A DNA stretch of 46,768 nt from Bacillota bacterium (GCA_021797675.1 JAJZZH010000055.1:1-46768), one strand, 5' to 3'; numbered from the stretch's first letter, positions 1,117 to 43,177 are shown. The notes: generated by a model not told the origin, from the letters alone. Numbers and translations: made by a program.

Positions 1117-1152
1117 CACGTTACGCGCTTAGAACGATAGGAGGAAAAGCTC

Positions 1153-2274
1153 ATGCGCATTGCAGCGGTGCGCTGCCATCCCGTGCACCTGCCCCTGCGG
1201 CGCCCCTTGGTTACGGCGGGCGGCGTGGTTGGCGACCCCCAGGCAGGGGCCCCCCACGTGTACATCGAACTGGTGGCCGAGGACGGAACGACCGGCCTCG
1301 GAGAATCCCGGCCGAGTCCACGATGGGGCGACGAAACCCTGGAAAGTGTGCTCAGCGCGGTCACCCGGTACTTCGCTCCAGCCTGGCAGGGCATGGCCAC
1401 CGACGACTTGCGGCAGCTGGCCGAACGCCTCGACGTAGAAATCCGCGGCTTAACCCGCCCCGGCCAAGCCGTGGCCAAAGCGGGCATGACCACGGCGGCT
1501 CATGACCTGCTGGCCCGACAGCGAAACCTCCGCCTGTCGGAATTGTGGGAGACGAAGGCACGAGGCTCGGTAGCGCTTTCCTATCTCATCAGCACGGATG
1601 CCGTTGAAGCGGCAGAGCGTATGGCCGAAACGGCCTTAGCGGAGGGCTATCGGGGCCTTGACGTCAAAATCGGTCGGCAACTCGAGCGTGATCTGGAATT
1701 GGTTGCCGCCGTGGCAGCCAAGGCACCAGGCTGCTTTCTTCGCGTCGATGCCAATCAAGGCTATAGCTTGAGCGAGGCCAAGCGCGCCGCCCGGCGGCTC
1801 TGTCAGATCGGCGTGGACGTCTTCGAACAGCCGCTGCCGGCGGCGCTGCTTACCGGATTGGCCGAGGTCCGCCGCGTGAGCGATGTGCCCATCGCCTTGG
1901 ACGAAAGCATCTCCACGGCCCGGGAATTACTGGAAGCTATCCGTCGGGAAGCGCTCGACGCGGTGGTCGTAAAGGTCACCAAATCGGGAGGGCTGGCCGA
2001 GGCGAAACTCATCGGCGAAATAGCCCGCGAGGCCGGTCTGGACCTCTTGGGGGGCGGGTTGACCGAATCTACCGTGGGTCTGACTGCCAGCGCGTACCTC
2101 TTCGATTATCTGCAAATCACCACGCCGGTCGACCTCAACGGTCCCCTCTTTCTCGGCGATGATCCGGTGCAAGGCGGCGCCAAGCTAGAGGGCGGCAGGG
2201 TGATCCTGCCAGAGGGACCGGGACTCGACTGCACGCTGAACCGAGAAAAATTGTCACGCTATAGCACCCCCTAG
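1153..2274 (+). CDS. Mandelate racemase/muconate lactonizing enzyme family protein (enolase superfamily)
   Basis: Enolase-superfamily enzyme of 373 residues that would abstract a proton alpha to a carboxylate. The Mg ligands are visible: D199 (RVDAN), E225 (FEQPLP) and D250 (ALDES). A Lys on the C-terminal side, K274 (VVVKVTKSGG), places it in the MLE subgroup (cycloisomerase, OSBS, dipeptide epimerase) rather than the His-based acid-sugar dehydratases. The first-side motif is D-V-K-I-G: K172 is kept, but the preceding Lys of the usual KxK is Asp. Near the C-terminus DLNGPLFL replaces the DxD expected of dipeptide epimerases. RBS AGGAGG precedes the ATG. Its neighbours (OppF upstream, sugar dehydrogenases downstream) allow either a peptide-epimerase-like or a sugar-acid role, and I cannot decide between them. 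Confidence 0.88.
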   Translation: MRIAAVRCHPVHLPLRRPLVTAGGVVGDPQAGAPHVYIELVAEDGTTGLGESRPSPRWGDETLESVLSAVTRYFAPAWQGMATDDLRQLAERLDVEIRGLTRPGQAVAKAGMTTAAHDLLARQRNLRLSELWETKARGSVALSYLISTDAVEAAERMAETALAEGYRGLDVKIGRQLERDLELVAAVAAKAPGCFLRVDANQGYSLSEAKRAARRLCQIGVDVFEQPLPAALLTGLAEVRRVSDVPIALDESISTARELLEAIRREALDAVVVKVTKSGGLAEAKLIGEIAREAGLDLLGGGLTESTVGLTASAYLFDYLQITTPVDLNGPLFLGDDPVQGGAKLEGGRVILPEGPGLDCTLNREKLSRYSTP

Positions 2275-2326
2275 GAGGAGTGCTTTCCCCCGTTGGCCAA
2301 CGCGGCAAGAGAAAGGGTTGGAAACC

Positions 2327-3355
2327 ATGCGCACCAAAGAGACGGTACGATTTGCCATTATCGGCTGCGGTACGGTCGCGCCGCTGCACGCGGAATCGAT
2401 TATTGCCGCCGCCGACGCGGAATTGGTGGCAGTGGCTGACGTTGACCAGGATCGCGCCCGCGCTTTCGGCGCCCGTTTCGGCGATCCCCGGATCTACGGC
2501 GACGTCGACCGCTTGTTGGCGGCAGACGACATCGACGTGGTAACGATTGCCACCCCGAGCGGGCTGCACGCCGAGCTGGCGGTGGCAGCGGCGCAAGCCG
2601 GCAAGCACGTCTTGTGCGAAAAGCCGCTCGACGTCCGAGCCGACAACATGACCAAGATGATCGAGGCGGCCGACCGCGCAGGGACCAAGCTGGGCGTCAT
2701 TTATCAGCGGCGAGCCTATCCCGTCGGGCTGGCGGTGCATGCCGCCCTGGCAGAGGGGACCTTCGGTCGGATCGTGTTGGCTGACGCTTACCTCAAATAC
2801 TATCGCAGCCAAGCGTATTACGACAGCGCCGGCTGGCGGGGAACGTGGGCCATGGACGGCGGCGGAGCGCTGATGAACCAGGGCGTCCACGGTGTCGACA
2901 TGATCCAGTGGCTGGCGGGGGGCATCCGCTCGGTGTTTGCACGGGCCGGACATCTTGCTCGTCGCATTGAGGTGGAAGATACGGCGGTGGCCGCCGTCGA
3001 ATACACCCACGGCGGATTTGGGGTGATCGAGGCCACCACCTTGGCTTATCCGGAACGCACCACGCGTTTCGAGGTGCACGGGGAATCGGGAACCGTAATC
3101 TTCGATGATCAGGGACTGCAGGAATGGCATCACCTGGGAGGCCAACCCGCCCCGCAGTCGCTCGCCGCGCCGGAGATGGCGGGAGTGCACTCGTACGGAC
3201 ACTACCGCTTTATTGAGGATATGGCGGCGGCGGTGCGGAATAACCGAGAGCCGTTGGTATCTGGCCGTGAGGCGAGAAAGGCGGTCGATATCATCTTGGC
3301 GATCTACCGTTCAGCCGAACGCGGCACGCCGGTGACCGTGGAGCCCTCTTCATGA
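2327..3355 (+). CDS. Gfo/Idh/MocA family NAD(P)-dependent oxidoreductase
   Basis: Likely NAD(P)-dependent dehydrogenase or oxidoreductase acting on a sugar, inositol or amino sugar. The N-terminal Rossmann motif is IIGCGTVAPLHAE (residues 11-23) and the family's EKP motif is at 98-100. The C-terminal domain contains GGALMNQGVHGVDMIQW, where the His and Asp of the active site are expected. I chose the ATG at 2327, with GAAAGGG 9 nt upstream, over a TTG at 2318. Its stop overlaps the next start as ATGA, so the two are translationally coupled. A second member of the family is encoded at 13080-14117, so two different oxidations may be handled by this locus. Confidence 0.92.
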   Translation: MRTKETVRFAIIGCGTVAPLHAESIIAAADAELVAVADVDQDRARAFGARFGDPRIYGDVDRLLAADDIDVVTIATPSGLHAELAVAAAQAGKHVLCEKPLDVRADNMTKMIEAADRAGTKLGVIYQRRAYPVGLAVHAALAEGTFGRIVLADAYLKYYRSQAYYDSAGWRGTWAMDGGGALMNQGVHGVDMIQWLAGGIRSVFARAGHLARRIEVEDTAVAAVEYTHGGFGVIEATTLAYPERTTRFEVHGESGTVIFDDQGLQEWHHLGGQPAPQSLAAPEMAGVHSYGHYRFIEDMAAAVRNNREPLVSGREARKAVDIILAIYRSAERGTPVTVEPSS

Positions 3356-4377
3356 ACGCCAGCATAAATTCCGTCCAGCTGAACGAGGCCTTGACCGATC
3401 CGAGTCCTGCCCTGCTCGCAGCCGGGGCGGATTGGGACGGTGATATCCTGATTTTGGGCGCAGGGGGAAAAATCGGTCCCTCGTTGGCCCATATGGCGCA
3501 AAGAGTTCTGACCGCCTTGGCCAAGCCCTTCCGGGTGGTGGCCGCATCCCGGTTTACCGACCAGGCGCTGCGAAAAGACCTCGAGCGCGCGGGGGTGGAA
3601 ACTATCGCCGTAGACTTCTTGGACGACACCACGTGGCGGCGCTTGCCCCGCCTCCCGAACGTCTTCTGCTTGGCGGGGCAAAAGTTCGGCACGACGGAAT
3701 TCGCCGCACGGACGTGGGCCATGAACACCTATGTCGCCGGACGCGTGGCGGAGACCTTCAAAGCCTCCCGGATTGTGGTCTATTCGACCGGAAACCTCTA
3801 TCCCCTAACCGACATCCGGAGCGGCGGCTCGGTGGAGACCGACCCTCCCCGTCCGTTGGGCGAATATGCCGCGTCCTGTCTCGGGCGCGAGCGCGTGATG
3901 GAATTCTTTTCACGGACCCACGGCACCCCAATGGTCTTCTTTCGCCTGAATTACGCGGTGGCGCTGACGTACGGGGTGCTGACCGATGTCGCTCTGGCCG
4001 TCTATCGCGGCGAGGCCGTCGACGTAAGCATGGGGTTGGTCAACGTCCTCTGGCAGGGCGATGCCAACGATTATGCGCTGCGCACCCTGACCTGGTGCCA
4101 GACCCCGCCAACCGTCGTCAATGCGACCGGCCCGGAGACCATTTCGGTGCGCTGGCTGGCCGAGGAATTTGGCCGCCGTTTTGCCCGTACGCCTTCCTTC
4201 GGCCCACCGCCCGGCGAGACCGCGCTGCTTAGCAACGCGGCCGAACTGTTTCGGCGCGCCGGGTACCCTCGGGTCACCCTAGGCCAGATGATCGACTGGA
4301 CCGCTGAGTGGGTGGCTACCGGGCAACCGCTGTGGGATCGGCCCACGCACTTTCAACAACGGCAGGGGGCGTTTTAA
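3352..4377 (+). CDS. NAD-dependent epimerase/dehydratase-like protein (extended SDR)
   Basis: Extended short-chain dehydrogenase fold, 341 residues. The nucleotide-binding loop GAGGKIG is at 36-42, an active-site-like Ser/Thr pair (S145, T146, in YSTGNLYP) is present, and the catalytic Tyr is at 172. In the normal Y-x3-K motif the Lys is replaced by Cys (EYAASC, C176), so the classical Tyr-Lys proton relay is incomplete. A 32-residue lead-in before the Rossmann strand is longer than usual. The ATG overlaps the upstream stop (ATGA), and its own TAA shares its last A with the ATG of the next gene. A sugar epimerase, dehydratase or dehydrogenase in the same pathway as its operon partners is likely. 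The substitution makes the exact chemistry uncertain. Confidence 0.85.
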   Translation: MNASINSVQLNEALTDPSPALLAAGADWDGDILILGAGGKIGPSLAHMAQRVLTALAKPFRVVAASRFTDQALRKDLERAGVETIAVDFLDDTTWRRLPRLPNVFCLAGQKFGTTEFAARTWAMNTYVAGRVAETFKASRIVVYSTGNLYPLTDIRSGGSVETDPPRPLGEYAASCLGRERVMEFFSRTHGTPMVFFRLNYAVALTYGVLTDVALAVYRGEAVDVSMGLVNVLWQGDANDYALRTLTWCQTPPTVVNATGPETISVRWLAEEFGRRFARTPSFGPPPGETALLSNAAELFRRAGYPRVTLGQMIDWTAEWVATGQPLWDRPTHFQQRQGAF

Positions 4378-5417
4378 TGACGAATCTGAGCCAGCCACGG
4401 ATGCCCGGTGGCGTCCTGGTCGCCCATCCCCTGGCTTTGGACGCTTCCCGGCGCCTGGACGAACGGCATCAGCGCGCTCTCAGCCGCTACTATTTGGCGG
4501 CGGGCGCGGATGGCCTCGCGGTTGGGGTGCATACGACCCAGTTTGCGGTCCATGATCCCGCCCGCGGGCTCTACGCTCCCGTCCTCGGCCTCGCCGCCGA
4601 GACGGTCCAGGCCGAGGCCGGCCGGCCGGTGGCCCTCGTCGCGGGCGTAATGGGACCGACCAGGCAAGCCGTGGACGAGGCGGAGATAGCGCGGGCCTTG
4701 GGGTATCACCTGGCGCTGGTGGCTTCCGTCGGAACCGACGACGAGGATGAAGATGCGTTAATGGATCGCATCCGCGCGGTGGGCGACGTGTTGCCCGTCT
4801 TTGCCTTTTATTTACAGCCCAAAGTGGGCGGCCGCCTGTTATCAGCGCGGTTTTGGCGCCGAATTGCCGACCTTGAGCAGGTGTGGGCGGTCAAATTGGC
4901 CCCCTTCGACCGCTATCAGACGGCCGCCGCGGTCACTCAACTCTTGGCCGCCGGCCGTCGGGATCTTGCGCTGTACACGGGCAACGACGACCACTTTATC
5001 GCCGACTTGATGACCCCCTGGCCGGGTCCCGGCGGCCAAACGCGCTACCTGGCGGGCGGGCTCTTGGGCCAGTGGGCGATATGGACCCGGACCGCCGTCC
5101 TGCTTTGGCGCCGCATTCAAACCTGGCGCGGGGATGCCCCGGAGCCCGGCGAAACCCACGCCTTGCTCAAGGAAAACGTCATCTGGACGCTCGCCAACCA
5201 GGCTTTGTTTGACGCCGATCATGACTTTCGCGGGAGCATCGCCGGCCTGCATGAAATTTTGCGGCGGCAGGGACTGATGGCGGGCCGTTGGTGCCTAAAT
5301 CCCCATGAAGACGTCTCGCCGGGACAGTTGGCGGCCATCGACGCCATCCGTGAAGCGTATCCCGAGTTGGCGGACGATGAGTTCGTGGCGGAACACTTGG
5401 ACCAGTGGCTTCACTGA
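4377..5417 (+). CDS. Dihydrodipicolinate synthase/N-acetylneuraminate lyase family protein
   Basis: Class I aldolase-type TIM barrel, 346 residues. The Schiff-base Lys is K173 (VWAVKLAPFD) and the family Tyr is Y145 (FAFYLQP), at the usual spacing of about 28 residues. The barrel starts at GGVLVAHPLALD, and the region around residue 95 (VMGPTRQAV) matches the family's substrate loop. The family makes or cleaves 2-keto acids, for example 2-keto-3-deoxy sugar acids to pyruvate plus an aldehyde, which would fit the sugar-oxidising neighbours. The start overlaps the previous stop as TAATG, so expression is coupled. The C-terminus is about 40-50 residues longer than a minimal DHDPS. The specific substrate is not determined. 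Confidence 0.87.
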   Translation: MTNLSQPRMPGGVLVAHPLALDASRRLDERHQRALSRYYLAAGADGLAVGVHTTQFAVHDPARGLYAPVLGLAAETVQAEAGRPVALVAGVMGPTRQAVDEAEIARALGYHLALVASVGTDDEDEDALMDRIRAVGDVLPVFAFYLQPKVGGRLLSARFWRRIADLEQVWAVKLAPFDRYQTAAAVTQLLAAGRRDLALYTGNDDHFIADLMTPWPGPGGQTRYLAGGLLGQWAIWTRTAVLLWRRIQTWRGDAPEPGETHALLKENVIWTLANQALFDADHDFRGSIAGLHEILRRQGLMAGRWCLNPHEDVSPGQLAAIDAIREAYPELADDEFVAEHLDQWLH

Positions 5418-5449
5418 GCGAGCGGCTGTCAAGGAGATGAAGCAAACGC

Positions 5450-6352
5450 ATGGACGTTGATCAACGCCGCGACCAATTGTGGTCGCTCTTGGGAGAATTG
5501 CCGGATCGCACCCGGCCGCTTACGGCAAAACCGATGCGCGTGTGGGAAACGCCCACCTACCGCGTCGAGCATTTGGTGCTCGACTTGAACGGCATCGAAC
5601 CGGTGCCCGCCTATTTCACGCGTCCTCGGGACGCGTCGGGGGCCCTGCCCACCGTGTTGTACCACCACGCCAGCGGCCCCTATGAAATCGGCAAACAGGA
5701 ACTGCTGGCCGGCCGGCCGGCCTTGGCCGACCCCCCCTACGCCGAGGCACTGGCCGAGCAAGGCGTGCAAGCCCTGTGCATCGACGCCTGGGGTTGGGGC
5801 GAGCGCCGCGGGCGCACCGAGAGTTCCCTGGCCAAGTGGATGTTGTGGAAGGGTAGCACGCTCTGGGGGATGATGGTGTTTGACGCCGTGCGTGCCATCG
5901 ATTATCTGATCAGCCGCCCCGATGTGGACCCGAACCGAGTGGCCACGCTGGGCCTTTCTATGGGCAGCACGATGGCTTGGTGGACGGCGGCCCTCGACCC
6001 GCGGATCGCCGTCACGGTGGATATCTGCTGTTTAACCGATTTCGAAGCGTTGGTTGCCCGCTGGGGGCTAGATGGTCACGGCCTCTATTATTATGTTCCC
6101 GGACTGTTAAAATTCTTTTCCACGGCAGACATTAACCGGTTGATTGCCCCCCGCCCGCATTTAAGTTTGAACGGCAACCATGATCCCCTGACCCCTCCCG
6201 AGGGGCTGTCGCGCATCGACCGGACGCTTCAAGACGTCTACACATCGTTCGGCGCGGAAAACGCCTGGAAGTGTTTTCGTTCCGACACCGGCCATTTCGA
6301 AACCCAAGCCATGCGGGAAGAGATTGTGGCGTGGCTCAACACCTGGCTGTAG
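5450..6352 (+). CDS. Alpha/beta hydrolase (dienelactone-hydrolase-like)
   Basis: Soluble serine hydrolase of 300 residues. The triad is visible: nucleophile S170 in GLSMGS, acid D245 in NGNHDPLTP, and base H282 in [21 protein letters not shown] (71-86) contains an HH pair typical of the oxyanion region in acetyl-xylan-esterase and dienelactone-hydrolase relatives, and [12 protein letters not shown] (110-121) is a characteristic strand-loop. AAGGAG lies 13 nt before the ATG. It is the last gene of the plus operon and ends 19 nt from the convergent permease. In context it could open a sugar lactone or deacylate a sugar, but carboxylesterase activity on another ester cannot be excluded. Confidence 0.85.
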
Positions 6353-8194: not shown

Positions 8195-9592
8195 CTAGGG
8201 TCGGACCGTTGCGTCCCGGCGCGTGCGTTCGCACGCCGCGTCGTACCATGCGCGATTCGGGTTGTGTTTCCAGTTTTCCCAGCTCATCCCCGCCTCGCGC
8301 AAGATCTGGTCCATACGGCGAACAAACGGCAGGCCGTTCTGAACGATGGGCAGCATGGGATCCTGATCGCCCCATCGCGCCACCCATGCCCGGAGTTCCT
8401 GGGCAAACTGCTCCGCGAGCCCCGGTTCGGCCTCGACAAGATTCTGGGTCTCACCGGGATCGTCGCTGACCCGGTACAGTTCACGCGGTGGCCGTTCATA
8501 GACCCCAGAATCCAGCGTCTCAATATATTTGTACGACGCGGTCCGAATCCCGCGCGCCGCCTGCCACGCGCATTCGCTCAGGTGTACGCGATCGCGTGGC
8601 CAGGGGCCATCTCCAGACAAGAGTGGCCAAAGCGACATCCCGTCGATGGGCTCCGCCGCAGAAATTCCCAAGGCTTCATAAATCGTCGGCACCACGTCAA
8701 TTTGCTGAACGAATTCAGAAACCGTCCGGCCGGCTGGCATCTTGGCCGGCCAGCGCATAATCAGGGGAATGTGCACGGTCGGTTCGTAAAGCCCACAGTG
8801 GTCCCAAAAGATATCATGTTCGGTCAGGCTTTCGCCGTGGTCGGCGATCAGGATCAGCCACGTATCTTGCCAAATCCCCAATTCCGCCAAGGTTTGGTCC
8901 AGGCGTTGCAACTGGTCGTCAAGATAGCGAACTTCCCCGTCATAACGAGCGCTCAGGTATTCGGGATCGGTCACCGGGCCCAGTAAGTCATAATGGTGGC
9001 GCTTGAAAAACGGATAGGCCAGATGGTTGTATGCTCGCTCCATGTCGTGGCGGGCAGGGTCGAATGGGTCTCGACCCGGCGGGTAAAACGGCTCATAGTA
9101 TCCCGGGGGCGGGAGATAGGGGCTGTGCGGGTCCCAATAGTGCACGAACAAGAAGAACGGCGTTCGATAGTGCTGCCGAAGCCAGTCCACGGCTTCTTGG
9201 GTCACGTCGGCACCATCGATCCATCGCTGCTGCGACACCATGTTGACATAGTAACGAAAACCCCGAGCGAACCAGGTTTTGAGCTGATAAAGATTGTCGA
9301 TCGCGGCGGTCGTCAGTCCGGCTCGGCGCAACGCCTCCGGAAGCCACGTTACCGTTTCCGGCAAGGCCGGATAGGGATGGCCGTGGGACACGATCCCGGT
9401 GGCGGCTCCCCAGCGGCCGCAAAACAGGCCAGTATGCGCCACTTCGGTAGGAATATCCGACACATAGGCCTCAGCGAACCGCACCCCTTGGCGGGCAATG
9501 GTGTCTAGATAGGGCGTGGTAGGCTTGTCGTAGCCATAGCACGTCAGGCGGTCTCTACGCAGCGTGTCCAAGGACACGACCACAATGTTCAA
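8195..9592 (-). CDS. Alkaline-phosphatase-superfamily hydrolase annotated as sulfatase, without the formylglycine Cys/Ser
   Basis: Metal-dependent hydrolase of the sulfatase/AlkP superfamily, 465 residues. Metal ligands are visible at D9 (SLDTLR), D251-H252 (IADHGES) and H265 (DHCGLYE), with the conserved block HYWDPHSPYLPP at 151-162. Where sulfatases carry C/S-x-P-x-R, this protein reads T-E-V-A-H with Thr49 at the nucleophile position, so it cannot form formylglycine. Phosphodiesterases and phosphoglycerol transferases of the superfamily use Thr. I chose TTG at 9592 (GGGAG, 8 nt spacing), because the upstream extension is not family-like. No signal peptide is seen, so the protein is probably cytoplasmic. 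A phospho-sugar or phosphodiester substrate is as likely as a sulfate ester. Confidence 0.88.
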   Translation of the reverse strand: MNIVVVSLDTLRRDRLTCYGYDKPTTPYLDTIARQGVRFAEAYVSDIPTEVAHTGLFCGRWGAATGIVSHGHPYPALPETVTWLPEALRRAGLTTAAIDNLYQLKTWFARGFRYYVNMVSQQRWIDGADVTQEAVDWLRQHYRTPFFLFVHYWDPHSPYLPPPGYYEPFYPPGRDPFDPARHDMERAYNHLAYPFFKRHHYDLLGPVTDPEYLSARYDGEVRYLDDQLQRLDQTLAELGIWQDTWLILIADHGESLTEHDIFWDHCGLYEPTVHIPLIMRWPAKMPAGRTVSEFVQQIDVVPTIYEALGISAAEPIDGMSLWPLLSGDGPWPRDRVHLSECAWQAARGIRTASYKYIETLDSGVYERPPRELYRVSDDPGETQNLVEAEPGLAEQFAQELRAWVARWGDQDPMLPIVQNGLPFVRRMDQILREAGMSWENWKHNPNRAWYDAACERTRRDATVRP

Positions 9593-9927
9593 CGTCGGGG
9601 CTCCCTTCCGCCTCGAATCCTCAGTGCCCAATTGGGCCGTCGTCGTCCTTAGGGCCGACGGCATCAGGCGGGCATCCCGCGATGTATGCCGACCCATCGC
9701 ATCTCCGAGACGTCACGTTCTACCAGTACCGTTACAATGACCGCGTACGGGGCGGGCGGCCATGGGCATTGGGTTGGGGTGCAGCGAGTCCTGAACCAGA
9801 CGTTAACGTGACGATATGCGTCACTTCGCGGTCCCGATGGGGGACGCGAACCGGTTCGCGGCTCGGCGATCCCCCGGAATTCGGGGCCGGCCGGTAGGCG
9901 TCGCGGGTGCCCCCGCGACGTGGTTTG
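9593..9927. other. Intergenic region between AraC-type gene and sulfatase-like gene
   Basis: 335 bases, both flanking genes on the minus strand. It holds a GC-rich hairpin just after the AraC-type stop (9899-9920) and a near-palindrome GTGACG-ATAT-GCGTCAC (9809-9825 by count, approximate), a possible regulator site for the sulfatase-like gene. No gene with an RBS is seen. Confidence 0.5.
9899..9920 (-). terminator. Hairpin after AraC-type regulator gene
   Basis: Perfect 9-bp stem CGTCGCGGG / CCCGCGACG with a TGCC loop, beginning 8 nt past the stop of the AraC-type gene. There is no U-tract, so it may act as an RNA 3'-end stabiliser rather than a classical intrinsic terminator. Confidence 0.45.
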
Positions 9928-10884
9928 TCAGGTGGGGAATTCATGGTGCTCCATCCCGCCTCCCCGCCGTCGGGGTTCCCAGGACTCCCGGCGTTCTTGT
10001 CGGCGATACTGCCCTGGCGGCACGCCAACCTGTCGATGGAACAACCGGCTGAAGAACGCCGGATCTTCATACCCGACCTTCTCCGCAATGGTGCCTACGG
10101 TATCCCCGGTCTCTTCAAGCAGACGGCGTGCGCGGGCGATCCGCACGTTGTGCAGATGGTCGATAACGCTCATCCCGGTCTCTCGGCGCACAATTCGCTC
10201 CATGTGCCGACGGCTCAGATGAAAGCGGGCCGCCAGTGCGTCCAGACTCGTTTTTTGCGCTGCGTGCAGTTCCAGATAGCCACATATCCGCCGCACCATC
10301 TCCGTGGTTGGGGAAGGCACCGCGCGCTCTTCGGCGCGCGGTTGGCGGCCGTATTCACTCGAGGCGAGCAGCAGCAATTCCATGAGTTGCAGGCGGAGGA
10401 GTTCGGCCGCTGCTTGACCCGTCTGCGCAAAGCCGCTCCATTCTCCCAGCATTTGCCGGAGCAGCGCGCGGACGTACTCCCGGGTCGGACCACTGAGATT
10501 GACCACCCGTCGAAAGCGTTCGGCGGGGTGCAAAAAGGGATGGATATAGAGGTAGTCGAGACCGTCCATGGGCACCATGGTTCGCACCAGGGGTTCGGGC
10601 AAGATATCGGGGAGAAACAAGCAATTGACGATGGCCACCCATTCCCCGTCAGGAAAATCAAAGGTGTGGGCCTCTCCAGGATTAATGAGGAAGATATCCC
10701 CGGAACTTAGCCAGTAGCGAGCGTCCTCAAAGACATGATATCCCTCCCCAGCCTCCACAAAGACCATCTCAATAAACTCATGACTGTGCCACGATGGCGC
10801 GTGCAAACGGTCATGGCGTTCTGACCGAATGGCAAAGGGAAAGTCATCAGCCAAGTATCGTGCAGAGGAAAGCTCGGGAATCAT
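9928..10884 (-). CDS. AraC family transcriptional regulator with cupin sensor domain
   Basis: Ligand-responsive transcription factor of 318 residues. The N-terminal cupin domain (about 15-110) contains WHSHEFIEMVFVEAGEG and FLINPGEAHTF, typical sugar-sensing jelly-roll motifs. The C-terminal double helix-turn-helix domain spans about 195-297, with LDALAARFHLSRRHMERI (first HTH) and IAEKVGYEDPAFFSRLFHR (second HTH, the AraC signature). Its ATG overlaps the stop of the upstream sulfatase-like gene (ATGA), so it is made together with the operon it probably controls. Two direct repeats 21 bp apart at 14222-14253 are its likely operator. The C-terminal tail after the HTH is Arg-rich and adds about 20 residues. 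Confidence 0.93.
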   Translation of the reverse strand: MIPELSSARYLADDFPFAIRSERHDRLHAPSWHSHEFIEMVFVEAGEGYHVFEDARYWLSSGDIFLINPGEAHTFDFPDGEWVAIVNCLFLPDILPEPLVRTMVPMDGLDYLYIHPFLHPAERFRRVVNLSGPTREYVRALLRQMLGEWSGFAQTGQAAAELLRLQLMELLLLASSEYGRQPRAEERAVPSPTTEMVRRICGYLELHAAQKTSLDALAARFHLSRRHMERIVRRETGMSVIDHLHNVRIARARRLLEETGDTVGTIAEKVGYEDPAFFSRLFHRQVGVPPGQYRRQERRESWEPRRRGGGMEHHEFPT

Positions 10885-12284
10885 GACGATTCCTCCTTGG
10901 CCCGATCTTGCAGCTGCCGGGCAGCTTGAATCGACCCGATATGCAGCGTACGATATGCCTCTTCGCTGCTGACAAACGGGCCTCGGTCGAGGCCGTGCCA
11001 GGCGAGCGTGGTGAGCATCGGGTTGGGGCGACCGGTTTCTTCCACCCGGCGGGCGATGTGGGCCTCCATGCGGTCGGTCAGCCTGTTCACCACGTCTGCA
11101 CGTGAATCGGCCAGATTGGTCGATTCACCCGGATCAGCCACGAGGTCATAGAGCTCTACCGCGGGTTTAAAGTGAAAGTCGGGTTCCAGAGCGCGGATCA
11201 GCTTCCATTCCGGTGTCCGCCAGCCGTGCTTGCGCATCCAGGTGGCTTCGGTGAGATAGAATTCGCTCGGCGCCGACGCGCCAGCCTCCGCACCCTGCTG
11301 CCACTCCGCCGCCAAATTTCGCCCGTCAAACGGCATATTGGCCGTGATTCCCATCACCGTCAACAGCGTGGGCATCACATCCTTCGCTTCAGAATAACGA
11401 AGCGTACGAAATCCACGCGGAACCGCTTTCGGGTAGCGGAGAATCAGCGGAACCCGCAAGGTGGATTCGTAGAGTCCGTGATGATCGTAATAGCACTCAT
11501 GCTCCAAGAGCGATTCACCGTGGTCGGAGGTGACCCCGATCACGCTGTCCTCGTCCAGATGGTGGTGCCTTAAGGCCGTCATAAGGACGGCGATATTCAC
11601 GTCGAGATAGGCGATGGCACCGTCGTACTGGCTATTGATATATTCGGCGTCCGTTACCCCGGGGGGAAACCAAGAACGGAAAAAGTCGCCAAAAGGCGTG
11701 AAACCCAAGACGGGATCCAGCGAGTGATTGGCCGGGTCCCGCTCATTACCGTGATAAAAGAGACGGTCAAAGGGCGTGGGCGGCAAATATGGCGAATGCG
11801 GATCCATATGCCGCAGGAAGAGAAAAAACGGATCGGAATGCTGGGCCAGCTCATCCAAAAGGGGCACCACCACCCGGTTCAGCGCCTCGGCTTTGGGAGC
11901 CCGTCCGGTGACCGGGTCCGGGTGCCACGACTCGTAGGATACGTAGGTATCAAAGCCTCGAGCCGCTGGATTTTTGTCGAAGCCCACGCAAATGGTTCGG
12001 TAACCCTGCGTCTTGAGCACCTCGGCCAACGTGACGGCGCCTTCGGCTAAATCCCCGGCATGCCGTAGGGCCACCACTCCGGTGCCGAAACAGTCCTTTC
12101 CGGTCAGCATCGATGCATACCCCGGCGTGGTGGGAATACTGGGGCTGAAATGATTGACGAAGAGAGCGCCCTCTTTGGCCAAGCGATCCAGATGCGGCGA
12201 CGTACCCCGTCCATATCCATACGCACTGAGATGGTCCGCCCGGAGCGTATCAATCCCCAATAGGATAAGGTTGGGCGCACTCAT
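10881..12284 (-). CDS. Second alkaline-phosphatase-superfamily 'sulfatase' with Thr at the nucleophile position
   Basis: 467-residue AlkP-superfamily hydrolase, a distant paralogue of the product of 8195-9592. Metal ligands are D12 (GIDTLR), D254-H255 (TSDHGES) and H268 (DHHGLYE), with RHMDPHSPYLPPTPF at 158-172. The sulfatase signature C/S-x-P-x-R is T-T-P-G-Y here, with T52 at the modified-residue position and Tyr56 for the Arg; the ASMLTG segment that follows aligns well. It should therefore not be a formylglycine sulfatase. The ATG at 12284 overlaps the upstream stop (ATGA) and GGGGGGAG precedes it. The longer frame upstream is antisense noise. No signal peptide is visible. It sits in an AraC-controlled operon with an isomerase and a dehydrogenase. 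Confidence 0.9.
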   Translation of the reverse strand: MSAPNLILLGIDTLRADHLSAYGYGRGTSPHLDRLAKEGALFVNHFSPSIPTTPGYASMLTGKDCFGTGVVALRHAGDLAEGAVTLAEVLKTQGYRTICVGFDKNPAARGFDTYVSYESWHPDPVTGRAPKAEALNRVVVPLLDELAQHSDPFFLFLRHMDPHSPYLPPTPFDRLFYHGNERDPANHSLDPVLGFTPFGDFFRSWFPPGVTDAEYINSQYDGAIAYLDVNIAVLMTALRHHHLDEDSVIGVTSDHGESLLEHECYYDHHGLYESTLRVPLILRYPKAVPRGFRTLRYSEAKDVMPTLLTVMGITANMPFDGRNLAAEWQQGAEAGASAPSEFYLTEATWMRKHGWRTPEWKLIRALEPDFHFKPAVELYDLVADPGESTNLADSRADVVNRLTDRMEAHIARRVEETGRPNPMLTTLAWHGLDRGPFVSSEEAYRTLHIGSIQAARQLQDRAKEESS

Positions 12285-13087
12285 GACGCCGCTCCCCCCG
12301 TCTGCCGCAGCAGCGCCCGGAGATAGCCGCGGTTTTCCGCAGCCAGCATGCCAAGGGTGGTGAGGGACTCGTCCCGGACGCCAATCACCTCTAGGGTGAG
12401 CGCACCCTGGTACCCGCCGGCCACCAAGGTGGAGCAAAACTTCTTCAGGTCGATGTCTCCGCGACCACAGATCTGCTCGGTGACAGGACCCGGCCCTTTC
12501 GCATCCCGCTTGCAATCGCGGATATGCACATGGTGGATGCGTCCCATCACCGCCGCGGCCGCGTCGGCCGGGTCTTCGCCGGACCGGAAGAGATGGCTCG
12601 GGTCCAGATCTACCCCGAAATGCGGCGACGACACCTGGGACAGCACCTCGATCGTCGTCGGAGTATTGTACATGGACTGGCCGATATGAGCCTTGACCGC
12701 CAAGTTAACCCCCGCGGCATCGGCCATCTCGGCCAGCCTCTGCAGGCGGTCCAGCATTTGACGCCATTGCTCGGTATCGTCCGATTTGCCTCCCGGCCCA
12801 ATGGTCACCGTCGGAATGCCCAACGCCTGAGCCGCTTCCAACGCTTGTTGCACGCGCGTCGGATCGGGCGACCCAACCTCCATCGCGACCCAGACTAGCC
12901 CCGACTCCGCAACCAGCGTCCGATACGGGGTGACCTGCTCCCGCCACCGCGACAGGTCGAGGTGCTCACACATCCCTTGGATGGCAGCAATCTCAATGCC
13001 ATCATACCCGGCCGCGGCAATGGTGCGGACCGCGGTGGGAAAATCGGCACCCCGCAACAGGACGGAATTGACCGCAACGTTAATCAT
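12281..13087 (-). CDS. Sugar phosphate isomerase/epimerase-like TIM barrel (xylose isomerase-like, AP endonuclease 2 fold)
   Basis: 268-residue TIM barrel expected to isomerise or epimerise a sugar or keto-sugar at a divalent metal. Visible are AGYDGIEIAAIQG (26-38), a metal-site-like D160-L-D-P-S-H165, HVHIRDC (186-192) and the C-terminal Glu E233 (LTLEVIG). Where many members have E-N-H for a metal-binding Glu, this one has V-K-A-H (K132, H134), a variant metal site. It overlaps the upstream dehydrogenase gene by 8 nt and the downstream sulfatase-like gene by 4 nt, so the three are one translational unit. The substrate is unknown. Confidence 0.88.
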   Translation of the reverse strand: MINVAVNSVLLRGADFPTAVRTIAAAGYDGIEIAAIQGMCEHLDLSRWREQVTPYRTLVAESGLVWVAMEVGSPDPTRVQQALEAAQALGIPTVTIGPGGKSDDTEQWRQMLDRLQRLAEMADAAGVNLAVKAHIGQSMYNTPTTIEVLSQVSSPHFGVDLDPSHLFRSGEDPADAAAAVMGRIHHVHIRDCKRDAKGPGPVTEQICGRGDIDLKKFCSTLVAGGYQGALTLEVIGVRDESLTTLGMLAAENRGYLRALLRQTGGAAS

Positions 13088-14117
13088 GGTGCGCCTCCTT
13101 AGCCGAGTCCGGTTCGTTGAGGGTGACGACGGAACCCGTCTCCCAGGAACGAATGGCCGCTTCGATCACCTCTTGCGCCTTGAGGGCGTCGAGCCCGGAC
13201 CCATCGATGGCATCGTAGGGCGTCCCCGCCAGGAGTTGGTCGACAAACGTGCCTATCCGACTGTCGAAGGTCTCCCCAAAGGATCGCATACCGCCTAAAT
13301 AGCGATAGGATTCGACCTCGATGCTGCGTCGAGGATAATAGGTGAGCGCTTCACAAGCGTCCTCAAGGACAAACCGCCCGGCCGAACCGACGACTTCCAA
13401 CTGCTCCAAGCCGTAACTCGCCCCCGCGTCATAACTGCCGACCAAATGCCCAATCGCTCCCGACTGAAATTGCAGCAGCACCTGAGTATTGGACCAGATC
13501 GTGCGGTTGGCACCTTTAACCATAAAGGCCGCCACCCGGGCGATCTCCCCGCCGAAATATCGCAGGACGTCTATCGAATGCGGATGCAGGGCGCGGAGAT
13601 GGAACCACGGCGACGACTCGACCGGATTGTTAATCCACATCCGCATGTTCAGCATGTGCAGCGTGCCCAGCCGGCCCTGTTCGACCCACTCCTTGGCCCG
13701 ATAAGCCGCGGGTGTAAAGCGATGGTTTAGGTTGATCGCGTAGGGAATATGCCGGTTTTCCGCATACGCTACCATCTCCCGCCCTTCTTCCAGACGGTTG
13801 GAAATCGGTTTCTCGCCCAGCACCGCGATCCCCGCTCGTAACAGCGCCATGGTGGGCGCATAATGCTCGCCGCCGTTTTCCTCCCCCTTGGTGGCCACGC
13901 TGGCCGCATCGAGCCGCAGATTGGCGGCCAGCAGCGCGTCCACGCTCGCAAAGGCCTGAGCCCCCACTTCTTTGGCCAGCGCCTCCGCCTTCTCCGGAAT
14001 GATGTCCGCGATGGCTACCAGATCAACCCGAGGGTGGCGCTGGTAGACGAGGGCATGGGTCCGGCCAATGTGGCCAGCGCCCACCACGGCAACGCGGAGC
14101 GATTTCTCTTGGGTCAT
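13080..14117 (-). CDS. Gfo/Idh/MocA family oxidoreductase
   Basis: NAD(P)-dependent sugar or polyol oxidoreductase, 345 residues, first gene of the AraC-type operon. The Rossmann loop VVGAGHIGRTHA is at 11-22, GEKPIS (101-106) is the family motif, and RALHPHSIDVLRYFGG in the C-terminal domain carries the conserved His and Asp pair. The ATG has an AGGGGGAAC-type purine stretch just upstream. Together with the isomerase it encodes the enzymes next to the two AlkP hydrolases, so oxidation of the sugar released by them is a reasonable guess. It is only distantly similar to the dehydrogenase at 2327-3355. Confidence 0.92.
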   Translation of the reverse strand: MTQEKSLRVAVVGAGHIGRTHALVYQRHPRVDLVAIADIIPEKAEALAKEVGAQAFASVDALLAANLRLDAASVATKGEENGGEHYAPTMALLRAGIAVLGEKPISNRLEEGREMVAYAENRHIPYAINLNHRFTPAAYRAKEWVEQGRLGTLHMLNMRMWINNPVESSPWFHLRALHPHSIDVLRYFGGEIARVAAFMVKGANRTIWSNTQVLLQFQSGAIGHLVGSYDAGASYGLEQLEVVGSAGRFVLEDACEALTYYPRRSIEVESYRYLGGMRSFGETFDSRIGTFVDQLLAGTPYDAIDGSGLDALKAQEVIEAAIRSWETGSVVTLNEPDSAKEAHHD

Positions 14118-14295: not shown

Positions 14296-15183
14296 CTACC
14301 GACGCCAAGCCGAGAGATCCTTGGACAACAACGCCTCGAGCCGCTCGATGTCTTCTGCGTAAGCCGCCAACAGACGCCGTCGCGTGTCGGAGCACATCAC
14401 CGGGTGGTCTAAGGTCATGCCCAGCACGCGCTCACGGAGCGCGTCCCGCCATGGCTCCGGTACCAGACGTTTTAGCCACGGCGTAAACGCGTACCCCCAA
14501 GTCAACGCCTGCCGCACGCCCGGAACTTTCGGCCGTCCCGACTGGTTGTAGCGCACGGCGACGTTCACCGGGTAGGCGGCGTCCACGCCCAAAAACTCGA
14601 ACAGCCTGCTCAGCACTCCGCGCGGCTGCTGCACGAACTCCTCGTACCAGACGACGTAAACCCGCTCGCGCCCGAAGTGCTCGAGATACGCGCGCACGCG
14701 TTCGGCGTAGCGTCCCATTTCGAAGTAATGCCACATGGGCTCATAGCCCGCACGCTTGCGTTCATCTTCCTGAGCCAGCCCTTCTTCGAAGCTCAGCCGT
14801 TCTCGCGCATCCCGCAGCTGGTGCAGATAAGCGCTGTACGCCCGGTCTACGGGGTGGCGCAGCAAGATCACGATTTTGGCGTCCGGTACCGCCTTTGCGA
14901 TCGCGCCGGCGGCCGGATAATAGAGATAGAGGACCGAACATTCCCCGACGGCTTTCCCCTCAGCGCCGGCGAACAGCGCTTCATAGTCATCCCGGTCGCG
15001 AATGAACAGGCGATTGGCGCGTTCGTCGCCGGGCCCTTGAAAGGCTGACGGAAGGTGTTCGGCCACAAAAAACGAGGCCTCTTTATGCGGGCTCATATAG
15101 ATTTGCGGATGCTGGCCAAGGTAGTGCGTGAGGGAGGTGGTGCCGGATCGCGCGGCGCCCACGATATAAAAGTTCGGCAACAT
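14296..15183 (-). CDS. PAPS-dependent sulfotransferase
   Basis: 295-residue sulfotransferase of the heparan-sulfate/NodH-like type, transferring sulfate from PAPS to a hydroxyl or amine of a carbohydrate or lipid. The 5'-phosphosulfate loop GAARSGTTS is at residues 9-17, and the 3'-phosphate motif LRHPVDRAYSAY (108-119) has R109 and S117. A further conserved block, YEEFVQQPRGVLSRLFEFLG, is in the C-terminal half. The ATG has AGGGAG 11 nt upstream. There is no signal or membrane segment, so it is cytosolic, where PAPS is made. It precedes the AraC-type operon on the same strand by about 180 nt. A sulfotransferase next to proteins of the sulfatase fold suggests an acidic-sugar theme, though those two proteins lack the sulfatase nucleophile. 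Confidence 0.9.
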   Translation of the reverse strand: MLPNFYIVGAARSGTTSLTHYLGQHPQIYMSPHKEASFFVAEHLPSAFQGPGDERANRLFIRDRDDYEALFAGAEGKAVGECSVLYLYYPAAGAIAKAVPDAKIVILLRHPVDRAYSAYLHQLRDARERLSFEEGLAQEDERKRAGYEPMWHYFEMGRYAERVRAYLEHFGRERVYVVWYEEFVQQPRGVLSRLFEFLGVDAAYPVNVAVRYNQSGRPKVPGVRQALTWGYAFTPWLKRLVPEPWRDALRERVLGMTLDHPVMCSDTRRRLLAAYAEDIERLEALLSKDLSAWRR

Positions 15184-15841: not shown

Positions 15842-16723
15842 TTACCCTTTTAGTCCGGTAAAATTGAGACCTTTGATCAGGCGTCCTTGCCCCACAGCAA
15901 ACAAGATCATAATAGGTAACGCAAACACTACCGAGGCAGCCATTAAACGGCCCCACTGCATGCCGTGAATGCTGACGAATCGATATAACCCCAGGGATAT
16001 CGTCCACTTGTTGGGATTATTCAGATAGAGCAAGGGGGCAACGAAATCTCCCCATGTACCCATAAACACAAAAATTAGCATCGCAGTGATCGGTCCAATA
16101 AGCTCGGGAAGAATAACGCTGTAGAACACCCGAATTTCCGAAGCGCCATCGATTCGCGCGGACTCGCTCAACTCGGCCGGAATCCCCATCATAAACTGGC
16201 GCAGCAGAAATATGAAAAAGGCGTTTCCGAAAAATGCCGGAACAATCAGCGGCAAATAGGTGTTAATCCAGTGTAAATTGTGAAACAGAATGTATAGCGG
16301 TATCATGGTCACTTGGTACGGAAGCATCATGGTCGCCAGAATAATCAGAAAGGCGACATTCCTTCCTTTCCAGGGGATTTTCGCTAATGAATAAGCAACC
16401 AAGGTGTTACTGACCAAGTTGCCCAACATGACAAACCCAGCGATGAACAACGTGTTCTTCATGTACAACCACAAAGGCACCTCTTGAAAAGCGTCGATAA
16501 AGTGAATCAGCGTGACACTTTGGGGAATCAAAGCGGCGATACCCGTCTTGGTCAAAATTTGGGTCGGTTCCAACGCCGATAACAACATCCACCAAAATGG
16601 CAGCAAGAGCGCCAACGCCACCACCAGCAGGACGAAATACGAGAGGGAGGACCGTACATTAATCCGTGCTCGGTGGTTGCCAACGCGTTTCGGTTGATGT
16701 AGTGCTCTCCTATTGTCCACCAT
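15842..16723 (-). CDS. Carbohydrate ABC transporter permease (MalG-like, CUT1)
   Basis: Inner-membrane permease subunit of a CUT1 sugar importer, 293 residues with six predicted membrane segments. The cytoplasmic EAA loop with its coupling Gly reads ELSESARIDGASEIRVFYSVILPE. The protein ends in NFTGLKG, the typical MalG-type terminus. The first membrane segment starts near residue 28 after a short charged tail. The start overlaps the upstream permease gene by 14 nt. It pairs with the MalF-like protein and the binding protein encoded upstream. No ATPase gene is nearby, so a shared MsmX-type ATPase elsewhere in the genome is expected. Confidence 0.94.
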   Translation of the reverse strand: MVDNRRALHQPKRVGNHRARINVRSSLSYFVLLVVALALLLPFWWMLLSALEPTQILTKTGIAALIPQSVTLIHFIDAFQEVPLWLYMKNTLFIAGFVMLGNLVSNTLVAYSLAKIPWKGRNVAFLIILATMMLPYQVTMIPLYILFHNLHWINTYLPLIVPAFFGNAFFIFLLRQFMMGIPAELSESARIDGASEIRVFYSVILPELIGPITAMLIFVFMGTWGDFVAPLLYLNNPNKWTISLGLYRFVSIHGMQWGRLMAASVVFALPIMILFAVGQGRLIKGLNFTGLKG

Positions 16724-17615
16724 AAAACAACCACCCTCTTGCCCACTTTAGTACCGTCAAGGTCAGCAGAAGGCTCATGACTAAGAGCGTCCATGCCAAC
16801 GCCGATGCGTATCCCATATTGAGGTAATGCAGAGCCTGGGAATAAATGTAGACCGATAGGAATAGTAATGATCCGTCGGGAGAGCCCGAACCTCCTCCAA
16901 TGATATATGGCGAGGTAAACGAACTTAAGGTTCCAATCATTCCGGTGATCAACAAAAACAACGTCACCGGAGACACCATCGGAATGGTGATGTGACGCAT
17001 TTGAGCCCAAGTTCCGGCTCCGTCCAGCTGTGCGGCTTCATAGAGCTCACTGGGAACCGCCTTCATCGCCGACAAATACAACAAGCCAGTATATCCGACG
17101 CCCCATAACCCCGCGCCTATCAAAAATGGCTTGGCCCACGTTGCGCTGTCGTACCAAAGGGGTTGCGGGAGGTGGACTAGTCCGAGAATCTGATTCACCA
17201 AGCCTACAGCTGGATTGAACAACCAGAGCATGACGAATAGGCTAGCCACAGCCGGCATCGCGTTGGGTAAAAAAAACGACGTTCGGAAAAGTGGCATGAG
17301 CCGCGTTTTTCCATTCATTAGGTGGCCAATTAGGAATCCCCCGATTAACCCTATTGGCAGACCGATTATGATCATATAGACGGTATTACCCAAAGCTTGA
17401 TAAAAATTGCTATCTTGAAAGACTGCGGCGTAATTCTGCAGCCCTATCCACCTTGGGGGACTAAAAATGTCATATTGAGTAAAGCTGTAATAGAGCGATG
17501 CGCCGATGGGATATAGCTGAAATGCCAAGAATCCAACAATCCACGGCAGGGCAAATAACAAGCCATTGCGCAGGTGCGTATGGCTAATGCTGTGGCGCTT
17601 CGAAATTGTCAACAT
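16710..17615 (-). CDS. Carbohydrate ABC transporter permease (MalF-like, CUT1)
   Basis: Second permease subunit, about 301 residues with six membrane segments starting at GLLFALPWIVGFLAFQLYP. The EAA loop reads ELYEAAQLDGAGTWAQMRHITIP, with the coupling Gly. I chose ATG at 17615, preceded by GGGGGAGG. A TTG one codon later has better spacing and is equally possible. The longer frame to 17822 runs back into the coding end of the binding-protein gene and adds a basic, unrelated head. It is co-transcribed with the binding protein upstream and the MalG-like gene downstream. Confidence 0.92.
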   Translation of the reverse strand: MLTISKRHSISHTHLRNGLLFALPWIVGFLAFQLYPIGASLYYSFTQYDIFSPPRWIGLQNYAAVFQDSNFYQALGNTVYMIIIGLPIGLIGGFLIGHLMNGKTRLMPLFRTSFFLPNAMPAVASLFVMLWLFNPAVGLVNQILGLVHLPQPLWYDSATWAKPFLIGAGLWGVGYTGLLYLSAMKAVPSELYEAAQLDGAGTWAQMRHITIPMVSPVTLFLLITGMIGTLSSFTSPYIIGGGSGSPDGSLLFLSVYIYSQALHYLNMGYASALAWTLLVMSLLLTLTVLKWARGWLFYGGQ

Positions 17616-17730
17616 CTCCTCCCCCTCGTATCCATCGATGCGCAGAACGAAGGATGGAGAATCTCCTTCCTTCGTCCTCTTTTTTCCTGCTTTCTGTCTG
17701 CCAAAGGTATGTTCGAGAAGATCCCAACCA

Positions 17731-19035
17731 TTAAGGAATCCGCGATGCTTGTTGTATTTTCGCCTGAGTGGCAGCCAAGGCCTTTCCAGGAGAGATTTTG
17801 AAATCCAATGCCAATCCTTCATACTTTCCCCAAATGGTGGCCAATTGAGGGAGAACGGTAAGGGACGGCCAATTATACAAATGGGGGCTGGTCGAATAGC
17901 GAACGAAATTAAGCAGTTTTGGATTGTTAGCGAATAAGGGGTTTTTGAGCGATGCGGGCGTGGTTGGAATTTTGCCCCGGATGCCGGTAAACCAGCCCTG
18001 CCACTTCGGACTTGTCAGAAACTGTATGAGTTCGAATGCTGCCTGGGGATGCGCCGCATTTCGAGGAATGAAAATTGCCCCGGGCGAAACCCATCCGCTA
18101 TCTTTCAGCGCTGGGTGGCCATTTGGATATGGAATCGGCGCGACGCCATAGTTCAGATGGGGCGCGTACTGCCTGATCCAAGAGGTAATCCACTCCCCGT
18201 CAACGTACATAGCCAGTTTCCCACTAAAAAACGGATTGGTTGCCGATGAATAGTTCCCGAATCCCGCAACTGCCTTGGTAAGGCGGACCAAACCATAGGT
18301 ATGTTCATACGATACCAGGAACTTCAACGCTGCCACATTCGCCGGGGACGTGAACGTAAACTTGTGGGTGGCCGGGTTATAAAATCGGCCACCAAACACA
18401 TAGTTCCAAAGCCGCTGGTAGGGATACGGATAGAGCGGATCAAAACCCAGCCGCACAATCTTGCCATTCTTAACGATGGTTAGCTTCTTGGCATCCTGCA
18501 ACATCTGACCGATGGTCTTAGGAGGCTGTTTGATGCCGGAGGCGGCGAAATCTGCCTTATTGTAGTACAACATGGCGACATCTTCAGTATACGGCAGTGC
18601 ATAAACTTTGCCGTGATTCTTGAAGACATGCAACGCCGTGGGGCTAAATTCACTTAGGTTGAGGCGCGCGTGCTGGATCATCGAACTCAACGGCAGGATT
18701 GCCCCTTTGGCTGCCCAAGAGGGAATCTCATAGTTTGCCCAAGTCTGAATAACATCCGGCGGCGATCCGCTGGCCATGGCAGCCAAATCCTTGGTTGGGG
18801 TCGTTCCTCCCAGGAGGTTAACCTTAATGCCAGGGTGAGTTTTCTCAAATATCGCGATGAGGTGTTTCTGAGCGTTATTGCTGGCTGCGCTTCCCCACGT
18901 GTTCCAATACGTGATTGTGATCGACTTTGCTCGACGCAAGGCAGGGTTTCGAAGAGTGGTGGACGGATATGCCCATCCGCCAAGCACTAGCACAACCGTG
19001 GTCGTCGCCAATAGGCTGCTGGTCAGAGTTTTCAT
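17731..19035 (-). CDS. Sugar ABC transporter substrate-binding protein
   Basis: Extracellular solute-binding protein family 1, 434 residues from the ATG at 19035 (GGGGAG 8 nt upstream). The N-terminus is a signal peptide (MKTLTSSLLATTTVVLVLGG). The mature part begins around SITITYWNTWG, the usual first strand, and shows family blocks such as PDVIQTWANYEIPSWAAKG, ALPYTEDVAMLYYNK and FFSGKLAMYVDGEW. There is no Cys near the signal peptide, so no lipobox is seen, which is unusual for a Gram-positive binding protein that must stay at the membrane. It is the first gene of the three-gene importer operon. The ligand is probably an oligosaccharide, not identified. Confidence 0.93.
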   Translation of the reverse strand: MKTLTSSLLATTTVVLVLGGWAYPSTTLRNPALRRAKSITITYWNTWGSAASNNAQKHLIAIFEKTHPGIKVNLLGGTTPTKDLAAMASGSPPDVIQTWANYEIPSWAAKGAILPLSSMIQHARLNLSEFSPTALHVFKNHGKVYALPYTEDVAMLYYNKADFAASGIKQPPKTIGQMLQDAKKLTIVKNGKIVRLGFDPLYPYPYQRLWNYVFGGRFYNPATHKFTFTSPANVAALKFLVSYEHTYGLVRLTKAVAGFGNYSSATNPFFSGKLAMYVDGEWITSWIRQYAPHLNYGVAPIPYPNGHPALKDSGWVSPGAIFIPRNAAHPQAAFELIQFLTSPKWQGWFTGIRGKIPTTPASLKNPLFANNPKLLNFVRYSTSPHLYNWPSLTVLPQLATIWGKYEGLALDFKISPGKALAATQAKIQQASRIP

Positions 19036-19103
19036 CCAAAAGGCTCCCCTCAAAATTAAACTCATAAGAACATCTTCCATCGGCGTGTTCTAAAGGGTGA
19101 ACT

Positions 19104-40966: not shown

Positions 40967-41013
40967 TCATTGCCACTAGCCCGATACAGAGTTCACATCT
41001 CGATAGGAATTGT

Positions 41014-41039
41014 CAGCCCGCTCTCAAGTGAGCGGGCTG
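41014..41039 (+). terminator. Terminator-like hairpin after the nucleotidyltransferase gene
   Basis: Perfect 10-bp stem CAGCCCGCTC / GAGCGGGCTG with a TCAAGT loop, 47 nt after the stop. A T-rich run does not follow, only GGTTCTGTTG. Confidence 0.55.
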
Positions 41040-41171
41040 GGTTCTGTTGTGGAAAGCGGCTCCGCATCATTAGAAGGTGTTTTGCGCGCGGATTACCCGA
41101 AATCGGGCGTCAATCGATCCGGCCGAGGTCTCATGACCCCGGCTTTGACTATGAATAGGAGACGCTCGTTA

Positions 41172-42280: not shown

Positions 42281-42436
42281 AAACTCCATTTTACCCTCGA
42301 CGACGCCGATCAAGACGCCATCCGGTTCTGGCGGGACGTCCATCGCCGATACTGCCCAGGCGGATGGGATCGGTCGACGACGCTCTGCCAACTAGGATCG
42401 GAGATCACCTCGTCGATGGTCCCGTCCCAGTACTGA
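42278..42436 (+). pseudogene. Truncated small gene after parM-like gene (possible ParR-type adaptor)
   Basis: ATG 42278 with GAAGGGAG upstream starts MKLHFTLDDADQDAIRFWRD, an RHH-like beginning expected for a ParR-type adaptor. After about 25 residues (near 42345) the sequence becomes the antisense of the rhamnosidase-like fragment, and the frame ends by chance at 42436. The 3' part of the gene is lost at this junction. Confidence 0.55.
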
Positions 42437-42807: not shown

Positions 42808-43177
42808 ATTCGACCCCTCCTCGTCAATTTGAGCACAACCCCACTCCCGCATCCTGGTCGCCGTTAGGACCCGTTCGCCGAGGTTCTTTACCTTGCTCCT
42901 CGTCGATTGCCATCCGCATGCGATCTGCCAGCTGGCAACCACATCTATCAGGACTTCACTTGGTTCCCCATTGCACCTAGCCGAATCGACTGCATATGAG
43001 GCATCCGGAGGGTCCTGTCCGACCATTTGCGTAATTCTGCCCGTGCCCTGGGAAGACCTCCCCTTGGGGGCAACCCCGTATCATATCAACCGATCCCATA
43101 CGGCCACCGTTCGTCACTGTGGATGCGACCCAAAACACGAGTCTGTGCTGGATTTTCAACGTTTTTGGTGTTAGCGG
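42808..43177. other. Intergenic stretch between the rhamnosidase-like fragment and the GH95-like gene
   Basis: 370 bases; both neighbours are on the minus strand. Minus-strand frames (for example one with VKNLGERVLTATRMREWG) lack an RBS and a complete gene. No terminator was recognised after the GH95-like stop. Confidence 0.4.

Follow-up and report, generated by a model that had tools for sequence, protein, structure and literature searches.

Threonine in place of the formylglycine precursor in two sulfatase-family proteins of a conserved sugar cassette in Bacillota

Introduction

Formylglycine is regarded as essential for efficient type I sulfatases, which carry its precursor, Cys or Ser, at the first place of the (C/S)xPxR signature. 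What, then, are two proteins that have the sulfatase fold and metal site but a threonine at that place? Such a pair, A and B, is encoded within one cassette on a 46,768-nt stretch of DNA from a Bacillota bacterium (GCA_021797675.1 JAJZZH010000055.1:1-46768), analyzed whole and here called the window. Thr nucleophiles serve LtaS, EptA/MCR, OpgB, and NPP enzymes of the same superfamily, and a preliminary description of this DNA had proposed that the pair cannot be formylglycine sulfatases and are instead Thr-dependent phosphodiesterases, phosphatases, or transferases that automated annotation would mislabel. The labeling was as foreseen: on the one annotated plasmid copy, PGAP gave both A and B the name “sulfatase” and labeled the CxPxR protein “sulfatase-like hydrolase/transferase.” That PF00884 includes Thr members with misleading annotations has been known since 2016, when Barbeyron et al. 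found Thr in 30 of 59 seed sequences and held the profile responsible for the spread of false annotations (PMC5066984).

Results and Discussion

Threonine at the nucleophile site

Gene A (8195 to 9592, minus strand) encodes 465 amino acids when read from the TTG codon at 9592, in front of which GGAAGGGAG could serve as a ribosome site; the residue at the formylglycine place is then Thr49 (T-E-V-A-H), or Thr84 if the alternative ATG at 9697 is the start. Gene B (10881 to 12284, minus strand) encodes 467 amino acids, its ATG start overlapping the stop codon of the isomerase gene upstream, so that the two genes share 4 bp, and it has Thr52 (T-T-P-G-Y) at the same place, in the context P51-T-T-P-G-Y-A-S-M-L-T-G. 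Both proteins were matched by PF00884 (153 and 147 bits; cut-off, 25) and strongly by SGSH_C; each lacks a signal or membrane segment and opens directly with the first catalytic strand.

The metal-ligand blocks, described earlier as intact, were so in both proteins and were invariant in both families: D9/T49/D251/H252 in A (TTG numbering) and D12/T52/D254/H255 in B. Together they form the site typical of S1 sulfatases, with an Asp near the N terminus and an Asp-His/Asn-Gly pair. Also invariant in both families were a D-x-H motif (D154/H156 in A; D161/H163 in B) and an extra His (H265 in A; H268 in B). The assignment of Thr to the Cys/Ser position, likewise made from the sequence in the preliminary description, was confirmed in several ways. 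The Thr of A and B precedes the T/C of the closing T-G by 9 residues, the same spacing as from Cys51 to Thr60 in Pseudomonas aeruginosa AtsA (PAS); when B is aligned by profile to the solved structure 9koq, Thr52 falls opposite the Cys and Tyr56 opposite the Arg of that protein; and in the confidently predicted models of the two proteins (pLDDT, 89.6 and 87.1) the catalytic helix begins with the Thr. These three lines, the constant T-G spacing, the modeled helix start, and the 9koq alignment, ruled out misalignment of the nucleophile. Other residues of the sulfatase site were altered. The place of the CxPxR Arg is taken by His in A and by Tyr or Phe in B, and the sulfate-binding Lys pair is gone, with Asn (A) or Phe (B) at the place of PAS Lys113 and Asp-His in both at that of Lys375, whereas most CxPxR neighbors keep Lys; PAS His115 is not kept in either protein.

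Conservation of the threonine in relatives

Relatives of B were sought in a scan of species genomes that returned at least 575 matches encoding them, from which the best 80 loci were taken; these come mostly from Paenibacillaceae and Bacillaceae and are not independent. With the window counted, A was present in 59 of 81 loci, and families A and B share roughly 33 to 37% identity. Every readable A relative had Thr at the site (57/57, one further sequence being a fragment with a gap), as did every B relative (80/80), so that neither the Cys/Ser of S1 sulfatases nor the Cys from which phosphonate monoester hydrolases (PMHs; S1_0) derive formylglycine is found there, and both families share the nucleophile-site Thr of LtaS, EptA, and OpgB. 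The other PF00884 proteins of the same loci had Cys in 51 of 52 cases. Chance substitution or a pseudogene was ruled out by the invariance of Thr in relatives.

That A and B are catalytically dead and serve as binding or regulatory proteins might be read from the joint change of nucleophile and Arg partner, but we consider it very unlikely: no variation occurs among the sampled sequences at the metal-site residues or at more than 100 columns, and what is fixed in both families is Thr rather than a random residue.

Two observations stand beside this survey. The window’s own genome has 17 further PF00884 matches, and Cys is found in all that can be read at the site but one, a T-I-P-M-R protein (L096, G000:C91:3121-4167) with Thr in an otherwise normal motif, which groups with Cys members in the tree. 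A contig binned as a Halobacteriales archaeon (L048) encodes a B protein 60% identical to that of the window, by misbinning or transfer.

Probable independence from the formylglycine machinery

If A and B were ordinary formylglycine sulfatases, with another residue modified, each carrier genome would be expected to encode a maturation enzyme. Twelve carrier genomes were sampled for FGE and anSME: FGE was missing in three (those of L026, L029, and L040), and anSME over the cut-off was found in none of the 12. In those three genomes, the PF00884 content comprised only A, B, and large proteins that, by length and motif, look LtaS-type. A and B are thus maintained in genomes for which searches detected no known maturation enzyme. 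The window’s genome does encode an anSME over the cut-off (FGE was not found), and fold and family scores would suit an ordinary sulfatase; against this, no readable member has a Cys or Ser at the site, carriers exist with neither FGE nor anSME over the cut-off, and oxidation of Thr would yield a ketone (PMC5066984). We therefore regard this explanation as extremely improbable. The claim that the pair cannot be formylglycine sulfatases is accordingly well supported by a Thr fixed in both families and by the three genomes with no detected FGE or anSME, and the predicted structures and alignments place Thr at the site.

A stronger reading, that A and B cannot be sulfatases at all, does not follow. 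A choline sulfatase with unmodified Cys still performs many turnovers, at 0.27 per second (PMC6189696), and sulfatase action without formylglycine is thus possible in principle.

Placement within the superfamily

Sequence profiles, predicted models, and a tree place A and B in the branch of Cys-type sulfatases and PMHs, with Cys-type proteins as nearest relatives. The NCBIfam arylsulfatase model scored 160 and 138 bits for the two proteins and the EptA, LtaS, and LapC models at most 34, although none of the curated NCBIfam models reached its cut-off for A or B. PF01663 (NPP) gave 29 and 45 bits, far below the PF00884 scores. Among solved structures, the best match of both models was the S1_25 sulfatase 6hr5 (A, Z 36.9, 2.4 Å over 347 residues; B, Z 35.6, 3.6 Å over 357), other S1 sulfatases, PMHs, and YejM following a few Z units behind; the 50 structural matches listed included no EptA, LtaS, or NPP, which may nonetheless match farther down the ranking. 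In a maximum-likelihood tree from which the motif columns had been left out, A and B formed one clade inside the Cys sulfatases (SH-aLRT 91, in a quick tree and below the threshold of 95), and LtaS proteins lay outside the sulfatase branch. The LtaS and EptA alignment rows seem shifted by two residues at the nucleophile column, and their letters there were left out, as were the exact places of EptA, OpgB, and LapC, which have long branches in this tree.

The clade neighboring A and B is a Cys-type group with a D-x-P-C-x-P-S-R motif that already has a His near the place of PAS Lys375. Cys-type relatives with this or a similar motif and a His near the Lys place were seen in L179, L180, and L182, on haloarchaeal plasmids, and in L181; among the sequences compared, no characterized member of this subgroup stood out. 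The simplest history would have Lys replaced by His first and Cys by Thr later, in the ancestor of A and B; because the tree is a quick one with support below the threshold, we infer this order rather than observe it.

Set against known systems, A and B are closest to S1 formylglycine sulfatases such as S1_25 (6hr5), the source of their best profile and structure matches, in fold, in the combination of PF00884 with SGSH_C, and in the Asp/Asp-His metal site. They differ from these in having Thr for Cys/Ser, His or Tyr for the motif Arg, and no Lys pair. The PMHs and phosphodiesterases of S1_0 (RlPMH, BcPMH, and SpPMH) are also among the close structural and profile matches but rely on formylglycine and a Cys/Ser signature (PMC5066984). 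YejM/LapC shares a Thr catalytic residue and a related domain (Z about 31 to 32 over 313 to 320 residues) but is membrane anchored and periplasmic, with much lower sequence scores. Unlike LtaS, EptA/MCR, and OpgB, A and B lack a membrane domain before the catalytic domain and stay at 34 NCBIfam bits or below where the curated cut-offs are 400 or more. They resemble the Thr-containing PF00884 proteins reported before in having Thr for Cys/Ser and in being matched by the sulfatase profile, but the example given there is TxNxE (PMC5066984), while TEVAH and TTPGY belong to the sulfatase branch. Kinship with NPP or LtaS enzymes, as first suggested, is thus not supported by NCBIfam scores, S1 structural matches, and the tree.

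That A and B are nevertheless Thr phosphoesterases (phosphodiesterases, phosphonate monoesterases, or phosphatases) acting on a phospho ester of a sugar or polyol, with the sulfur genes nearby serving other steps, is a serious possibility that we think probably does not hold. Thr is the residue generally used for phosphoryl transfer in NPP, LtaS, and EptA, and the His at the Lys375 place of A and B is reminiscent of the second metal site in EptA and NPP. YejM is a phosphatase that acts through Thr302 (PMC7576196). PMHs are among the close structural matches, and the sulfate-binding Lys residues are replaced, one of them by His. The Lys-to-His change, however, is common to the Cys-type sister group and is therefore not a mark of a switch to phosphate.

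A sugar cassette linked to sulfate activation

All genes of the cassette in the window are on the minus strand. Between B and A lies an AraC-type regulator (9928 to 10884; 4-bp overlap with B). Upstream of B are a xylose-isomerase-like TIM barrel (PF01261; 12281 to 13087, 4-bp overlap with B), an IolG-like Gfo/Idh/MocA oxidoreductase (13080 to 14117, 8-bp overlap with the TIM barrel gene), a sulfotransferase recognized by its profile match (Sulfotransfer_3; 14296 to 15183), and a carbohydrate ABC importer (15842 to 19080; permeases at 15842 to 16723 and 16710 to 17822 and solute-binding protein at 17731 to 19080). The core of oxidoreductase, TIM barrel, and B is almost universal: of 81 loci, window counted, 80 have the TIM barrel and 79 the oxidoreductase, and the TIM barrel gene stands directly before B in 74. 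Carbohydrate ABC importers recur beside the cassette in relatives.

Genes of sulfur metabolism recur there too. Members of an APS kinase cluster occurred in 45 loci (three of three tested passed the TIGR00455 cut-off), and their consensus keeps the P-loop, DGD, LGFSxxxR, and KGLYxKAR motifs. In 36 loci the gene lies directly 5′ of A, overlapping it (often by 4 bp) or at most 64 bp away, in two gene orders. The genomes counted, of 4 to 9 Mb, have 1 to 3 strong APS kinase copies each, and chance presence in a 17-kb locus would thus be about 1%; most carrier genomes counted have one or more further copies elsewhere. A CxPxR sulfatase was encoded in 46 loci and ATP sulfurylase in 8. Among 87 neighbors without family assignment that were scanned, no other sulfur or phosphate family appeared among the 25 commonest, and no phosphate-related gene was seen recurring near the cassette. 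The neighborhood, as read from these sequences, points to sulfur rather than phosphorus, and the recurrence of APS kinase, ATP sulfurylase, and Cys sulfatase genes speaks against phosphoesterases. Of the inference first drawn for this pair, then, the replacement of the formylglycine precursor by Thr is supported in both families, and membership among NPP or LtaS enzymes is not.

A role of A, or of both proteins, as a transferase, in which Thr would accept a sulfuryl or phosphoryl group from, for example, PAPS supplied by APS kinase and pass it to a sugar, seems unlikely. EptA and LtaS transfer from phospholipid donors, and the overlap of A and APS kinase genes in many loci would suit such a role. 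So would the sulfotransferase gene, which precedes the oxidoreductase gene in the window and in one other locus (L009), whose relative (1154 to 2044) is 83% identical; in a BLAST search at E ≤ 0.01, L009 was the only other locus with a relative, and the sulfotransferase is presumably part of the functional unit. Sugar importers and genes for catabolic-type dehydrogenases and isomerases in the loci argue the other way, as does A itself, which matched no nucleotide-binding family.

Other features of the window are recorded here in their own right. At 9738 to 9932 (minus strand), the ASRT (PF07100) protein of L010 was weakly matched in tblastn (E 1.6e-4, 34%), and the matched stretch may be a decayed copy; in L010 that protein sits between AraC and A, and ASRT-type genes occur near the cassette in about 18 loci. 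A second catabolic-looking run (148 to 6352, plus strand) encodes an Opp-type ATPase, an enolase-superfamily enzyme, a Gfo/Idh/MocA oxidoreductase, an NAD epimerase, a DHDPS-like protein, and an AXE1-like hydrolase. Farther along are an AbiEii-type nucleotidyltransferase followed by an actin-like (ALP/MreB-like) protein (39986 to 42101, plus strand) and, at 42313 to 45601 (minus strand), a rhamnosidase N-terminal-like open reading frame (42313 to 43026) with a GH95-type glycosidase (43181 to 45601).

A possible mechanism

The explanation that we judge best, with somewhat less than even confidence, is that A and B are cytosolic, formylglycine-independent ester hydrolases with a Thr nucleophile, descended from Cys-type sulfatases and acting on an ester, most likely a sulfate, of an imported sugar or polyol. 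In this proposal, a plain threonine would have taken the place of the modified residue of the ancestral formylglycine enzymes. Activated by a divalent metal bound to Asp, Thr, Asp, and His, Thr49 of A or Thr52 of B would attack the ester, and the resulting covalent Thr intermediate would then be hydrolyzed by water. The D-x-H motif and the His at the sulfate-binding Lys place could act as leaving-group or water catalysts or form a second metal site. The substrate, a sugar- or polyol-sized ester, would be brought in by the carbohydrate ABC transporter; the Gfo/Idh/MocA dehydrogenase and the TIM-barrel isomerase would process the same sugar or polyol, and APS kinase may help to channel the freed sulfate into PAPS. 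Sequence, conservation, predicted fold, clade, cassette content, and the lack of detected maturation enzymes in some carriers are observations; from these data we infer catalysis by A and B, Thr as the nucleophile, the covalent intermediate, sulfate as the group, and sugar as the substrate.

Chemistry alone favors phosphate as the group removed, and context favors sulfate, which we slightly favor in view of the link between A and APS kinase and of the CxPxR sulfatase frequent in the cassette. Several points weigh against sulfate-ester hydrolysis by A and B, which we hold only tentatively. The Thr nucleophiles known in the superfamily serve phosphoryl transfer; Lys113, Lys375, and His115 of PAS are all replaced or lost; APS kinase is missing from the window locus and, within 8 kb, from many Bacillus loci; a Lederbergia block of ATP sulfurylase and APS kinase could be ordinary assimilation adjoining by chance; and the non-independent loci are mainly from two families. 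In its boldest form, which may be right but on balance falls a little short of an even chance, the proposal would make A and B true sulfate-ester hydrolases (or sulfuryl transferases) working on an unmodified Thr, a sulfatase lineage freed from formylglycine, with A partnered with APS kinase.

Implications

No description of the A/B clade and its cassette, of formylglycine-independent sulfatases, or of an operon of APS kinase, sulfatase, and Gfo genes was found in the literature searched, most subscription papers lying outside it. A Thr clade nested among Cys sulfatases, the pairing of A and B in one cassette, and the link to APS kinase appear to be new. Their recognition would correct the database labels of many proteins, given at least 575 matches encoding relatives of B. 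The clade opens two questions to experiment: whether efficient cleavage of sulfate esters is achievable without formylglycine, or whether replacing Cys by Thr converts a sulfatase into a phosphoesterase. With an unvarying Thr for Cys and a place in a widely conserved sugar operon, in many loci together with a gene for sulfate activation, A and B may show how a sulfatase-type enzyme can work without the formylglycine modification.
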